A DNA stretch of 64,000 bases from Haloplanus sp. GDY1 (GTDB lineage Archaea; Halobacteriota; Halobacteria; Halobacteriales; Haloferacaceae). The stretch spans positions 1,612,001 through 1,676,000 of the forward strand of contig NZ_CP098514.1 in the NCBI RefSeq assembly GCF_023703775.1, read 5' to 3'. The position numbers and the translations under genes are program-made. Shown one piece after another: positions 4,950 through 62,721 of this stretch. Each line of letters begins with the position of its first letter. Position 1 is the stretch's first letter. The notes beneath the pieces were generated by a model, which saw only the letters and a list, made by a program, of their open reading frames with translations, ran no database searches and was not told where the DNA came from.

Positions 4950-6140
4950 ATGGGAGAGACCTTCTCCGGCTTCAGACGAACCGACGGTCGAATCGGCGTC
5001 CGCAATCACGTCGCGATCATCCCGACGTCCGTCTCGGTCAGTTCCATCGCGAGCAAGGTGGCCGACGAGGCGGGCGAGTGGGCGCGCGCGACACCCCACC
5101 AGATGGGGACGTCCCAGCCCGACCGGACCCGGGAGCAGACCCGGCGAACCCTGGCTGGGATCGGACGGAACCCGAACGTCGGCGGTGCGCTCGTCGTCGA
5201 ACTCGGCACCGAGGACATCGACGCCGAGGGGCTGGCCGACGACATCGCGCGGGTCGACACCCCGGTCAGCACGCTCACCGTCCGCGAGGTCGGCGGGACG
5301 CGGGCGGCGCTCGACGAGGGCGTGAGCCTCGCGACGGCCCTCTACGACGAGGCGAAGGAGGCCCGCCGCGAGGAGGCGGACGTGAGCGAACTCGTCTTCG
5401 GCGTCGAGTGCGGGGGGAGCGACGCGACCAGCGGCATCGCGGCGAACCCGGCGGTCGGCCACGCCTGTGATCGCCTCGTCGAGGCCGGCGGGACGGCCTC
5501 GTTCAGCGAGACGCCGGAGTTCATCGGCGCCGAACACACGCTGGCCGAGCGCTGCACCGACGAGGAGACGCGCCGCCGACTGCTCGACCGGGTCGACCAG
5601 CGGGAGAGTCAGGCCGAACTCATGGGCGTCGACCTGCGGGGGGCCCAGCCCACGCCCGGCAACAAGGAGGGCGGCCTCACGACCATCGAGGAGAAGAGCC
5701 TCGGCGCCATCGTGAAGGGCGGCACCACCCCCGTCGAGGGGATGGTCGACTACGCCGAGCGCCTCCCGACGGGCGCCGGCCTCGTCCTGATGGACACGCC
5801 GGGGTACGACGTCGAGAGCGTGGTGGGGAAGGTGGCCGGCGGCGCACAGGTCGTCGCCTTCACCACCGGCCGCGGCAGCACGACCGGCAACCCCATCGCG
5901 CCCGTCATCAAGGTGACCGGCAACCCGAAGACCTGGGAGAAGATGTCGAGCAACATCGACGTGAACGCCAGCACCGTCGTCGACGGGCGGCCGATTTCGG
6001 AGGCCGGCGACCGCGTCTACGAGACGCTCGTCGCGGTGGCGAACGGCCGACGGACGGCCGCCGAGCAGCGACGCCTCGAGGAGTTCGCGATCAACGAGAT
6101 CCAGCCCAACGAACTCGCGTCCGCGGAGGTGGACGTATGA
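4950..6140 (+). CDS. UxaA family hydro-lyase, large subunit (first copy)
   Basis: 396 residues. This is the catalytic C-terminal region of the altronate/galactarate dehydratase family, also used by the (R)-sulfolactate sulfo-lyase SuyB. Family segments seen are FRRTDGRIGVRNHV, FGVECGGSDATSG, TPGNKEGGLTTIEEKSLG, MDTPGYD and FTTGRGSTTGNPIAPVIKVTGN. An in-frame ATG at 4911 is rejected because MGETFSGFRR matches the expected N-terminus and has a TATA-like element. Its stop overlaps the small subunit (ATGA). Substrate may be a sugar acid or sulfolactate-like acid. Confidence 0.88.
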   Translation: MGETFSGFRRTDGRIGVRNHVAIIPTSVSVSSIASKVADEAGEWARATPHQMGTSQPDRTREQTRRTLAGIGRNPNVGGALVVELGTEDIDAEGLADDIARVDTPVSTLTVREVGGTRAALDEGVSLATALYDEAKEARREEADVSELVFGVECGGSDATSGIAANPAVGHACDRLVEAGGTASFSETPEFIGAEHTLAERCTDEETRRRLLDRVDQRESQAELMGVDLRGAQPTPGNKEGGLTTIEEKSLGAIVKGGTTPVEGMVDYAERLPTGAGLVLMDTPGYDVESVVGKVAGGAQVVAFTTGRGSTTGNPIAPVIKVTGNPKTWEKMSSNIDVNASTVVDGRPISEAGDRVYETLVAVANGRRTAAEQRRLEEFAINEIQPNELASAEVDV

Positions 6141-6448
6141 AAGGCGAGAGCATCGACGGCGTCGTCCTGCGGATGGACGACGGCGACGACGTCGCGACGG
6201 CCCTCGAGGACCTCTCGGCCGGCCGGGAACTGACGGTCGACGGCGACACGATCACGCTCGCGGAGGACGTCCCGTTCGGCCACAAGGTCGCCCTCCGGTC
6301 CGTGGAGGCCGGGGCCGAGATCCACAAGTACGGCGAGGTGATCGGTGCCGCGAGTCGGCCCATCGAGCCCGGCGAGTGGGTCCACACGCACAACTGCGAG
6401 AGCACGCGCGGGCGTGGCGACAAGGCGGCCGCGGAGGGATCGGCGTGA
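6137..6448 (+). CDS. UxaA family small subunit (SAF domain)
   Basis: 103 residues matching the small SAF-fold subunit that complements the large UxaA/SuyB subunit. Conserved features are the central DVPFGHKVAL segment and the C-terminal EWVHTHN box ending at the conserved His-Asn. It overlaps the large subunit before it by ATGA and the one after it by GTGA, so all three are translationally coupled. Confidence 0.87.
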   Translation: MKGESIDGVVLRMDDGDDVATALEDLSAGRELTVDGDTITLAEDVPFGHKVALRSVEAGAEIHKYGEVIGAASRPIEPGEWVHTHNCESTRGRGDKAAAEGSA

Positions 6449-59583: not shown

Positions 59584-59695
59584 TCAAGGGGTTGCGCAGC
59601 CGGATTCGGCGTGGCCTCGGCGACGAGTACGGGATGACGACCGGGATGTGGGCGGATTCGGACGAGGGAAAGTCTGAAGCCACTCGTTTACAGAC

Positions 59696-59701
59696 GTATA
59701 C
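59696..59701. promoter_or_regulatory. GTATAC palindrome at the vapB start
   Basis: The hexamer within ACGTATACAT lies immediately before the antitoxin ATG at 59704. A related CGTATACG lies before the second antitoxin gene. It is a candidate autoregulatory site. Confidence 0.3.
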
Positions 59702-59703
59702 AT

Positions 59704-59946
59704 ATGGGAACCAAGAACGTCCGACTGGACGACGACGTGTACGAGCGGGTGAAAGCCCACAAGCGGGAGGACGAGACGTTTTCGGACGCCGTCGCTCGCC
59801 TCATCGAGGACGTGTCCCTCCTCGATCTCGTCGACGAGAGCGCTGAGTACGACGCGGAGCGGGCGGCAGCGCAGAAGGCCACGCTGAAGCGGACGGCGCG
59901 CGCGGACGCCGAGTCGGCCGCAGGGCTCGACGAGAAGGGTTCGTAG
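59704..59946 (+). CDS. Antitoxin, VapB/DUF217-like
   Basis: 80 residues. The N-terminal strand and helices (TKNVRLDDDVYERVKAHKR) and SDAVARLIED match archaeal VapB-type antitoxins, with an acidic/alanine-rich tail that would wrap the toxin. It ends 6 bases before the PIN-domain toxin, forming a VapBC operon. Such antitoxins repress their own promoter as a complex with the toxin. Confidence 0.85.
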   Translation: MGTKNVRLDDDVYERVKAHKREDETFSDAVARLIEDVSLLDLVDESAEYDAERAAAQKATLKRTARADAESAAGLDEKGS

Positions 59947-59952
59947 CACGGG

Positions 59953-60384
59953 ATGATCCTCGATACGAACTTTCTGATAGACCTAGACAACGACCGACCG
60001 GAGGCGATCGAGAAGGCACGACGGATCGAACGCGAAGGCCTCCCGCGGCGAGTCCCGCGAATCGTGATGTTCGAGTTGTGGGTCGCGGTCGGGAAGGGTA
60101 CACGGACAGAACACAACCGACGGAAGTTCGAACGACTGCTCGATGGGCTTCCACAGGTCGAACTCACGGCATCGATAGCGAAGCGGGCGGGAGAAATCGA
60201 GGGAGAAACGCAGGCGGCCGACCCGAACGACATCGGTGTCGGGTCCGCGGATGCGATCATCGCGGCGACGGCAATCGACGTGGGAGAGCCGGTCGTGACG
60301 GATGACGAGCGGGACTTCGTGACCCGGATACAGGAGCAGGCAGGGGTATCGGAGTTAGAGGTCGAACTGTACGCGGCCGAGTAG
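59953..60384 (+). CDS. PIN-domain ribonuclease toxin, VapC family
   Basis: 143 residues. The four acidic PIN residues are present: Asp in ILDTNFLID, Glu in MFELWVAV, Asp in SADAIIAATA, and the Asp pair in VTDDERDF. VapC toxins cleave tRNA or rRNA with Mg2+. It is paired with the antitoxin 6 bases upstream. Confidence 0.9.
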   Translation: MILDTNFLIDLDNDRPEAIEKARRIEREGLPRRVPRIVMFELWVAVGKGTRTEHNRRKFERLLDGLPQVELTASIAKRAGEIEGETQAADPNDIGVGSADAIIAATAIDVGEPVVTDDERDFVTRIQEQAGVSELEVELYAAE

Positions 60385-60415
60385 AACCACGCGACGGCGT
60401 CACGCGGCCGATACG

Positions 60416-60667: not shown

Positions 60668-60685
60668 CACGCATAGCGTTTGTAT

Positions 60686-60982
60686 ATGTCCGATGCCGAC
60701 AGCGGAACTGGAGGCGACGGACCGGAGACGGTCCAGATCAATCTCCGTCTGAGCAAGGCCTTCCTCGAGGATATCGACGCGACGTGGCAGGAACAGGGGT
60801 TCAACTCCCGAAGCGAGTTCCTCCGCTACGCCGCTCGGGACGCGATCAAACACCCCGAGTTCTCACGGGAGGGGTGGAAACAGATCGCGGCGAGCGAGCA
60901 CGAACTGCGTTCCGGTGACGCGGAGCTGGTGTCGCGGGAGGAAGTCGTCGAGATGATGGACCGCGACGAGAATGACGAGTGA
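60686..60982 (+). CDS. Ribbon-helix-helix antitoxin
   Basis: 98 residues. The RHH fold is clear: a strand VQINLRLSKAFLEDID followed by NSRSEFLRYAARDAI. The acidic C-terminus (SREEVVEMMDRDENDE) is the probable toxin-binding part. It overlaps the RelE-type toxin by 11 bases. ATG 60686 is chosen over 60680 for the usual MSD start. Confidence 0.87.
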   Translation: MSDADSGTGGDGPETVQINLRLSKAFLEDIDATWQEQGFNSRSEFLRYAARDAIKHPEFSREGWKQIAASEHELRSGDAELVSREEVVEMMDRDENDE

Positions 60983-61250
60983 CTGGACCTGGAAGTTCAC
61001 CCAACGCGCTGCGGATCAGTTCGACGGGCTCGATCCGCACGTCCAGGACCGAACCGTCTCGAAGCTCGACGAAGTGGTGGACTCGGAGTGGCGGGAGCCG
61101 TCGGACTTCCTCGAACCGCTAACCGGCGGGCCGTTCTCCAAACTGCGGGTCGGACAGTATCGCCTCGCCTGCGTGCTCGATCACGGAACGTCCACACTCG
61201 AAGTCCGCAGAATCGAGCATCGAAGCGGTGCCTACACGGCCGACGACTGA
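60972..61250 (+). CDS. RelE/ParE-type toxin
   Basis: 92 residues. The RelE/ParE pattern is visible: WKFTQRAADQFDGLDPHVQDRTVSKLDEV in parts, then LTGGPFSKLRVGQYRLACVLD (YRLxC/YRV-type strand) and VRRIEHRSGAY at the end. RelE members cleave ribosome-bound mRNA and ParE members inhibit gyrase; the sequence cannot decide. It overlaps the RHH antitoxin by 11 bases. Confidence 0.87.
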   Translation: MTSDWTWKFTQRAADQFDGLDPHVQDRTVSKLDEVVDSEWREPSDFLEPLTGGPFSKLRVGQYRLACVLDHGTSTLEVRRIEHRSGAYTADD

Positions 61251-61262
61251 CGAAGGCAACGG

Positions 61263-61508
61263 TCAGAAGAGATTCCCGACACGCTCGCACGGTTGCTCGT
61301 GGAGCGCGGGCGTACCGAGTTCCGGCGGCTCGTTCCAACAGTCGGAACAGTGCCGGTAGAACGCGACCAGCCCACCGGTGAGTGGCTCGGGGTCGCGCCA
61401 CTCGGTCCGGTCGGACCGAAGTGAACTCTCGCAGACAGGTCGGGGGTCGAACCACCTGGTTCGGTCACGCCGACCACCCCCGACTGACCCGGGGGAATGA
61501 AGCGGCAA
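61263..61508 (-). CDS. Possible small or truncated zinc-ribbon-like ORF
   Basis: 81 codons as an open frame. The C-terminal 55 residues (SSLRSDRTEWRDPEPLTGG, then FYRHCSDCWNEP) look protein-like and contain one CxxC. The N-terminal part (HSPGSVGGGRRDRTRWFDP) looks random, and only one cysteine of a would-be first knuckle remains. It may be a truncated zinc-ribbon gene left by rearrangement next to the repeats. Start unknown. Confidence 0.3.
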   Translation of the reverse strand: MPLHSPGSVGGGRRDRTRWFDPRPVCESSLRSDRTEWRDPEPLTGGLVAFYRHCSDCWNEPPELGTPALHEQPCERVGNLF

Positions 61509-61518
61509 GAACAGCTGC

Positions 61519-61528
61519 TATACGTATA
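61519..61528. repeat. Perfect palindrome TATACGTATA at the edge of the tandem repeats
   Basis: A 10-bp self-complementary AT-rich element lies 10 bases outside the distal end of the 85-bp repeat array. It is related in core sequence to the GTATAC elements before the two toxin-antitoxin operons. Confidence 0.45.
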
Positions 61529-61537
61529 AAGAGTATG

Positions 61538-61792
61538 GACTGTCCGGATTCGAATCCTTCCCTGCGGTTTTTCCCCAAGTTTTTGCGAGGGAGCGCAGCG
61601 ACCGAGCAAAAAGTGGGAGTGGGACTGTCCGGATTCGAATCCTTCCCTGCGGTTTTTCCCCAAGTTTTTGCGAGGGAGCGCAGCGACCGAGCAAAAAGTG
61701 GGAGTGGGACTGTCCGGATTCGAATCCTTCCCTGCGGTTTTTCCCCAAGTTTTTGCGAGGGAGCGCAGCGACCGAGCAAAAAGTGGGAGTGG
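61538..61792. repeat. Three perfect 85-bp tandem units carrying a copy of the tRNA-Pro 3' end
   Basis: Units at 61538-61622, 61623-61707 and 61708-61792 are identical. On the minus strand each unit ends with GATTCGAATCCGGACAGTCC followed by CA, nearly the tRNA-Pro T-arm and acceptor end. Each also contains a T-rich/A-rich hairpin (TTTTTGC...GCAAAAA) around GAGCGCAGCGACC that could terminate tRNA transcription. There are no spacers, so it is not CRISPR. Confidence 0.9.
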
Positions 61793-61862
61793 GACCGCCC
61801 GGATTCGAACCGGGGTCACGGGCACCCAAGGCCCGAAGTATACCAGGCTAACCCACGGTCCC
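61790..61862 (-). tRNA. tRNA-Pro (anticodon UGG)
   Basis: 73 nt without encoded CCA. Acceptor stem GGGACCG/CGGTCCC pairs with A as discriminator. The anticodon stem CGGGC/GCCCG encloses the loop CTTGGGT, giving anticodon TGG at positions 34-36. T-arm CCCCGGTTCGAATCCGGG in parts. No intron is seen. Its 3' end is the source of the tRNA-like ends of the adjacent tandem repeats. Confidence 0.93.
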
Positions 61863-61908
61863 GTACGAACACTTGCCTCTCGCGCCCGCTAAAGGATTTC
61901 GTTCGACC

Positions 61909-62721
61909 TCAGTCGGCACCGATTTCGCAGCCGTCGACGTACTCGACGTCGTCGATGGAGTCGATGGGGTCGTCGCCACACACCGGGCAGTCGGGATCCT
62001 TCGCGTAGGGCACCGTCTCGAAGGTCATGTCCATCGCGTCGTAGAAGAGCATCCGGCCGATCAGGGGGTCGCCGGCGTCGAGCAGGAGTTTGACGGCCTC
62101 GGTGGCCTGGATGCAGCCCACGGTGCCGGGGAGGACGCCGAGGACGCCCGTGGTCGCACAGTCGGGGACGGTACCCGGTTCGGGCGCCTCGCGGAACAGA
62201 CACCGGTAGCAGGGCCCGTCGGGATGAAGCGTCGTGACCTGGCCCTCGAACTTGTAGATGGCGCCGTGGGAGACGGGGACCCCGGCGAGTCGGGCGGTGT
62301 CGTTGACGAGATAGCGCGTCGGGAAGTTGTCGGAGGCGTCGACGACCACGTCGTAGTCCTCGATCAGGTCGGCGTCGTCCCGGTCGAGACGCGTCTCGTA
62401 CGTCTCGACGTCGACGTCGGGATTGAGCGTCGCCACGAAGTCCTTCGCGCTGTCGACTTTGGGGCGACCCACGTCGCTATCCCCGTGGATCACCTGCCGC
62501 TGGAGGTTCGATCGCTCGACCACGTCGTCGTCGACGACGCCGATGCGACCCACGCCCGCGGCCGCGAGGTACTGGATGACGGGCGCACCGAGCCCGCCGG
62601 CACCGACGACGAGCGCGCTCGAATCTAACAGGCGCTGCTGCCCCTCCGGACCGACCTCGTCCATGATGATGTGTCGGGAGTAGCGATCCAGCTGTGTCGA
62701 ATCGAGCGAGAGCCCACTCAT
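61909..62721 (-). CDS. ubaA: E1-like ubiquitin/SAMP-activating enzyme, UbaA/MoeB/ThiF family
   Basis: 270 residues. The nucleotide loop is VVGAGGLGAPVIQYLA. Adenylation residues lie in DDDVVERSNLQRQV (Asp, Arg). Zinc cysteines are CYRC and CPVC. The active-site Cys is probably in PDCATTGVLG. In haloarchaea the single enzyme of this type, UbaA, adenylates SAMP ubiquitin-like proteins for protein conjugation and supplies sulfur carriers for molybdopterin and tRNA thiolation. The tungsten enzyme downstream in the window would need that pterin pathway. Confidence 0.9.
   Translation of the reverse strand: MSGLSLDSTQLDRYSRHIIMDEVGPEGQQRLLDSSALVVGAGGLGAPVIQYLAAAGVGRIGVVDDDVVERSNLQRQVIHGDSDVGRPKVDSAKDFVATLNPDVDVETYETRLDRDDADLIEDYDVVVDASDNFPTRYLVNDTARLAGVPVSHGAIYKFEGQVTTLHPDGPCYRCLFREAPEPGTVPDCATTGVLGVLPGTVGCIQATEAVKLLLDAGDPLIGRMLFYDAMDMTFETVPYAKDPDCPVCGDDPIDSIDDVEYVDGCEIGAD

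Follow-up and report, generated by a model that had tools for sequence, protein, structure and literature searches.

The array behind tRNA-Pro

The stretch of DNA analysed here (the window, 64,000 nucleotides of the genome of Haloplanus sp. GDY1) contains a tRNA-Pro(TGG) gene that is read on the minus strand and is followed directly by a tandem array, beyond which lie the relic of an integrative-element end and toxin-antitoxin genes. The features, in window coordinates, are the following.

61790..61862 (Infernal) or 61789-61862 (ARAGORN), minus strand: tRNA-Pro(TGG) gene; its last 20 nt (T54-N73), TTCGAATCCGGGCGGTCCCA, are the segment repeated in the array
61705..61789, minus strand: unit 1, 85 bp, adjoining the tRNA-Pro 3′ end directly
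61752..61784, minus strand: hairpin P1 of unit 1, TTTTTGC...GCAAAAA, which recurs in units 2 and 3
61716..61727: GGATTCGAATCC in unit 1, a perfect 12-bp palindrome
61705..61724, minus strand: terminal copy (echo) of unit 1, a copy of tRNA-Pro T54-N73 with 2 mismatches
61620..61704, minus strand: unit 2, 85 bp, identical to unit 1
61535..61619, minus strand: unit 3, 85 bp, the outermost, which meets the flanking element relic
61281..61534: relic of an integrative-element end, which shares 79% identity over 281 bp, a small part of unit 3 included, with an element lying immediately next to tRNA-Pro in the genome G003
60680..61250, plus strand: antitoxin-like ORF (no Pfam match) and ParE-type toxin (PF05016)
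59638..60395, plus strand: VapBC region (PF02697, PF01850), which over 760 bp shares 88.6% identity with a segment of the element at tRNA-Pro in the genome G004

The array is the strongest tandem array of the window according to Tandem Repeats Finder (period 85, 3.2 copies, 98% matches, 61537-61809, score 532), its copy number, like those of the arrays in relatives given below, being that of the assembly. The suggestion of an earlier note on this DNA that the array arose by tandem amplification is supported. The same note described three identical 85-bp units; we find that the three contiguous units are indeed present and that units 1 and 2 are identical, while unit 3 differs from them at 2 of the 85 bases, both of these being the last two bases on the sense strand. 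Read in the orientation of the tRNA, each unit is composed of a spacer with the TTTTTGC...GCAAAAA hairpin and then the copy of the tRNA-Pro end. That the unit ends are tRNA-Pro 3′ ends, as had been claimed, is confirmed by the match at 18 of 20 bases between the ends of units 1 and 2, TTCGAATCCGGACAGTCCCA, and that of tRNA-Pro, TTCGAATCCGGGCGGTCCCA, the chance match of a random 20-mer with up to 4 mismatches being about 0.0007 per tRNA flank.

A search for the tRNA-Pro end word 5′ of the gene and for the reversed word on its 3′ side found neither, and no further copies of the unit end were found in the own genome. A related spacer (86%) is present behind the intron-containing tRNA-Met of the own genome, where tRNA-Met 3′ ends flank it on both sides. 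The window units contain no genes, 85 bp being too short for one. Compared with shuffled sequences the window unit has no excess fold stability (z −0.47 as RNA and −0.01 as DNA), and the whole array folds with a stability no greater than expected. An Rfam scan of 61000-62500 returned the tRNA itself and two sub-threshold matches only, with no match to RtT at E up to 1.

Integrative elements at the same site

The tRNA-Pro locus was compared among 12 Haloplanus genomes. The window-type spacer lies behind tRNA-Pro in G001, G007, G008, G009 and G011, in G009 as several units in tandem whose second hairpin is intact (2.0 x 123 bp). In G002, G004, G005 and G006, tRNA-Pro directly adjoins the start of an integrated element, with the sequence TACCGTTAT... 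or one close to it. In G004 an element of about 15 kb with a tyrosine integrase (PF00589, PF02899) is located between tRNA-Pro and a spacer unit, with the integrase gene ending at a second tRNA 3′ end and the spacer unit lying on the far side of the element. Since such elements are present at tRNA-Pro in the relatives and since both 61281-61555 and the VapBC region of the window are homologous to them, the earlier note was right to see an integration hotspot at tRNA-Pro, and the flank of the array is, as judged from these homologies, a mosaic of element relics. The toxin-antitoxin genes that had been noted nearby are also real, comprising VapB/VapC and a ParE-type toxin by their Pfam domains, and the absence of an integrase holds for the ORFs listed for 56-64 kb, among which none was seen. 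The units themselves appear distinct from these elements, the element ends at tRNA-Pro being unlike the unit spacer.

As a separate observation, copies of the tRNA-Met 3′ end occur about 6 kb apart in G008 (G008:C1:2769600-2782900), and a gene for a tyrosine integrase (5181-6239) is located close to where the first interval ends.

Echo units behind haloarchaeal tRNA genes

We define an echo as a copy of a tRNA's own last 20 nt (T54-N73) with at most 4 mismatches within 350 nt on the 3′ side, and the rates given here depend on these thresholds. Counting only tRNA genes that were also called by ARAGORN, an echo is present at 18 of 39 tRNA genes in the own genome, 12 of 39 in G007, 15 of 31 in G190 (family f4) and 15 of 30 in G150 (family f2), where three families are covered in all and where, for G190 and G150, the tRNA lists are partial, consisting mainly of the 30 best-scoring tRNAs, a choice independent of the flank. 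Thus, in these four haloarchaeal genomes 30-50% of the tRNA genes are followed by an echo, with the copy 65-240 bp downstream and in the same orientation, at a chance expectation of about 0.0007 per tRNA. In nearly all cases only a short hairpin spacer separates the echo from the tRNA. In an archaeon outside the class, none of 33 tRNA genes has an echo, and in all genomes tested neither the same word 5′ of the tRNAs nor the reversed word 3′ of them gave a single case.

The edges of the copied block are sharp. Over 115 distinct echoes of 32 tRNA species, taken from related genomes and thus non-independent as sequences, the identity to the cognate tRNA is 0.90-0.99 at positions 54-73, compared with 0.24-0.33 at positions 49-51 and 0.55 at position 74, and with permuted tRNAs as the control it is 0.32-0.56 at most of positions 63-73. 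A copying from the mature tRNA by reverse transcription was considered and rejected, since the 3-nt sequences commonly found behind base 73 do not include CCA.

The canonical unit has the order of tRNA end, hairpin P1, inverted T-loop and T-stem, a core folding as hairpin P2 and then the direct cognate T54-N73 copy; an example of the inverted copy is GGATTTGAA for TTCAAATCC and an example of the core is CAGGGAG...CGACCGTGG. Of 124 units, 104 have the inverted T-loop, the tRNA-specific bases of which are cognate (2.16 of 4, a value reached in 0 of 5000 permutations, versus 1.47 for permuted tRNAs). An inverted arm spanning the whole acceptor was rejected, with the cognate pairing extending only to about T-stem position 64. 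Identical P2 cores of 27-42 nt are found behind different tRNAs, each with cognate arms. Of 292 genomes of the class, 174 contain the P2-core pattern and none gave a match for the reversed control; in a comparison with the rest of the phylum the pattern was present in 43 of 81 genomes inside the class versus 0 of 311 elsewhere. The 30 core matches sampled are all located behind a tRNA, and each terminates in a copy of the 3′ end of its tRNA (0-5 mismatches). In genomes without this core other core variants serve, as seen in G150. No description of the haloarchaeal units was found in the literature covered, which consisted mostly of open-access papers, and the echo units apparently represent a widespread haloarchaeal family that has not been described previously.

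Of the intact P2 with its inverted T-loop and conserved core, the window unit retains only the GGATTCGAATCC palindrome. In G009, tRNA-Pro has an intact P2 beside the same type of P1 as in the window unit, and from this form GGATTCGAATCC would be a collapsed P2 in which the inverted T-loop is fused to the direct T-loop.

The hairpins are biased towards the sense strand. The units fold better than dinucleotide shuffles, with a mean fold z of −3.3 for the sense and −2.1 for the antisense strand, and hairpins of the form GA-NN-loop-NN-GA number 106 on the sense strand versus 15 on the antisense strand, although in some hairpins, such as P1 of the window, it is the antisense strand that carries the stable-loop motif. 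A GNA loop is present in 79 of the 106 sense hairpins, 77 of these 79 being closed by C-G, and among the four-base loops GNYA (17) exceeds GNRA (5). Loops of the form C-GNNA-G are stable in DNA. So is d(GCGAAGC), an extraordinarily stable DNA mini-hairpin (PMC4686876). The loop signature therefore leans towards DNA rather than RNA hairpins, short of proof.

It is also noted that the P1-type palindrome (CCCACTTTTT...CGCAAAAACKTGGGGAAAA) is dispersed in many Halobacteria genomes and that at several loci it stands directly after apparent stop codons of protein genes. This looks like either a T-rich terminator that acts in both directions or a repeat scattered through the genomes.

The units vary in presence and copy number at the same tRNA between congeners, and arrays of 2-7 units are found repeatedly. 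In G007 the intron-containing tRNA-Met(CAT) is followed by 6.8 x 123 bp (G007:C1:3218699-3219640) and tRNA-Gly(CCC) by 7.5 x 65 bp, the units ending in the tRNA-Met and the tRNA-Gly 3′ end, respectively, and tRNA-Glu(CTC) by 2.2 x 92 bp. The earlier note had held that identical arrays in all relatives with no mobile gene content would speak against its integration reading; this was found in part, with the 7-copy tRNA-Met and tRNA-Gly arrays of G007 having no cargo inside the repeats. The tRNA-Phe genes of the own genome and G007 are 100% identical, and G007 has exactly 136 extra bp, i.e., one unit, before the homologous flank, a difference that may be a gain or a precise loss via recombination between the 20-bp direct repeats. 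At tRNA-Leu(TAA) the two genomes also appear to differ by about one unit. At the tRNA-Asp locus of G190, for its part, a 165-bp tandem unit is present in 2.8 copies, and the locus has two tRNA-Asp genes separated by about 2 kb.

Origin of the array and comparison with known systems

We propose, as the probable origin, that the window array arose when a single member of the haloarchaeal family of tRNA 3′-end echoes was recently amplified in tandem. In this proposal, the P2 of the window unit would have collapsed by deletion of the loop between two TTCGAA, leaving GGATTCGAATCC, as suggested by the G009 form, and the repeats would then have increased in number through slippage or unequal crossing-over, the near identity of the copies implying that the amplification was recent. 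With less certainty, units may be gained, converted and lost by recombination between a tRNA end and its copy. Single-stranded DNA hairpins may take part, as suggested by the sense-strand bias of hairpins with loops that are very stable in DNA. Correction of the imperfect palindrome would be expected to preserve the match between the inverted arm and the copy. However, in the cases of disagreement between echo and tRNA, the arm agrees with the echo 11 times, with the tRNA 17 times and with neither of them 14 times, and thus correction of the arm by the echo is unsupported. Since integrases, too, target tRNA 3′ ends, the array would share its site with the integrative elements and not be derived from them. 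A broader idea, that a class-wide family of mobile or recombining elements made of DNA hairpins inserts at tRNA 3′ ends and takes its arms from the target, each unit thereby acquiring the 3′ end of the particular tRNA that it follows, is put forward only tentatively, and we rather doubt it.

The earlier note regarded the units as possible relics of repeated integration and excision, in which case an integrase element would have entered and left tRNA-Pro repeatedly and the array would be the residue of tandem integrations. The duplicated tRNA 3′ end is present as that reading expects, the copied T54-N73 block is like an att core extending from the T-loop to the 3′ end, integrase elements are found at tRNA-Pro in the relatives and relics of them in the window flank, and archaeal integrases favour tRNA 3′ ends (PMC8371274). 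Nevertheless, we consider it unlikely. In the four haloarchaeal genomes, cognate units stand behind 30-50% of the tRNA genes, and almost always the spacer is just a short hairpin; no integrase or cargo lies between the duplicated ends in the window units; and the element ends do not resemble the spacers. The P2 core, which the window unit has only in part, gave 0 matches as a query in 2.9 million viral contigs, and the window array matched no phage or plasmid record. Moreover, one hairpin core occurs with the ends of different tRNAs, which is unexpected for tRNA-specific integrases and thus disfavours the relic reading.

It would also be conceivable that the units are transcribed as trailers of the tRNA 3′ end, acting in termination, 3′-end processing or regulation, and are kept by selection on RNA structure. 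The orientation matches that of the tRNA in every case, the hairpin motif is biased to the sense strand (106 versus 15) with the stronger sense fold z-score, and by analogy the rtT repeats of E. coli contain an annotated small RNA, RttR. Against a function of this kind stand a presence and copy number that differ between congeners at the same tRNA and four-base loops that are more often GNYA than the RNA-type GNRA (17 versus 5), and we judge it to be quite improbable. Finally, tRNA genes are prone to recombination and arrays of identical copies are typical of slippage, yet a neutral expansion only, with chance palindromes duplicated by slippage, no dedicated mechanism and no origin shared across tRNAs, is disfavoured and in our estimate very improbable, because different tRNAs have P2 cores of 27-42 nt that are identical while the arms are cognate, and because the T54-N73 block has sharp edges in 115 units, both of which indicate a shared, repeated process.

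If a third to half of haloarchaeal tRNA genes carry such units, a major trait of a well-studied group would seem to have gone unreported. The units offer a natural system for recombination at tRNA 3′ ends and for the choice by integrases between true and copied att sites, as well as for whether single-stranded DNA hairpins drive the spread of archaeal repeats. In practice, short tRNA-end repeats in haloarchaeal genomes are insufficient alone as the sign of a lost provirus.

Among the known systems, the att duplications of archaeal tyrosine integrases (SSV, pNOB8 and SNJ2 families) also copy the tRNA 3′ end, have the same location and co-occur with the units at tRNA-Pro. By contrast, the haloarchaeal units have no integrase or cargo, contain a hairpin spacer module of about 60-130 bp and share one core at many tRNAs. 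REP/BIME elements are similarly short extragenic palindromes with hairpins, dispersed and sometimes in tandem, but the haloarchaeal units differ in being tied to tRNA 3′ ends and in carrying the cognate tRNA copy. In Methanopyrus kandleri a palindrome lies behind about half of the tRNA genes (PMC5217627); it is a short single motif, CGTTA(N)9TAACG, 10 bp past the gene, for which no tRNA-end copy is reported (PMC5217627).

The closest analogue, in terms of layout, is the tyrT (rtT) locus of E. coli. In E. coli K-12 (tyrT (tyrV), NC_000913.3:1285600-1287400) copies of the last 20 bases of the tRNA occur three times at 19 of 20 bases, 178 bp apart, and, as read in the sequence, hairpins follow a partial, inverted copy of the end of tRNA-Tyr (GGGGAAGGAT). 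The rtT/RttR repeats, like the window array, are contiguous tandem direct repeats that start from a tRNA 3′ end and each end in its copy, and, like the haloarchaeal units in general, they have the inverted partial copy and then the hairpins, in the same order of parts. In sequence no likeness was found, the window array giving no match to RtT at E up to 1 in the Rfam scan. Unlike in the haloarchaeal units, the E. coli copy begins within the T-loop and includes the encoded CCA, and the rtT units hold a small ORF (tpr) and the annotated small RNA. To our knowledge, repeats of the rtT type are known from the E. coli tyrT locus only; compared with that one locus, the haloarchaeal units are present at many tRNAs, each with its own end.
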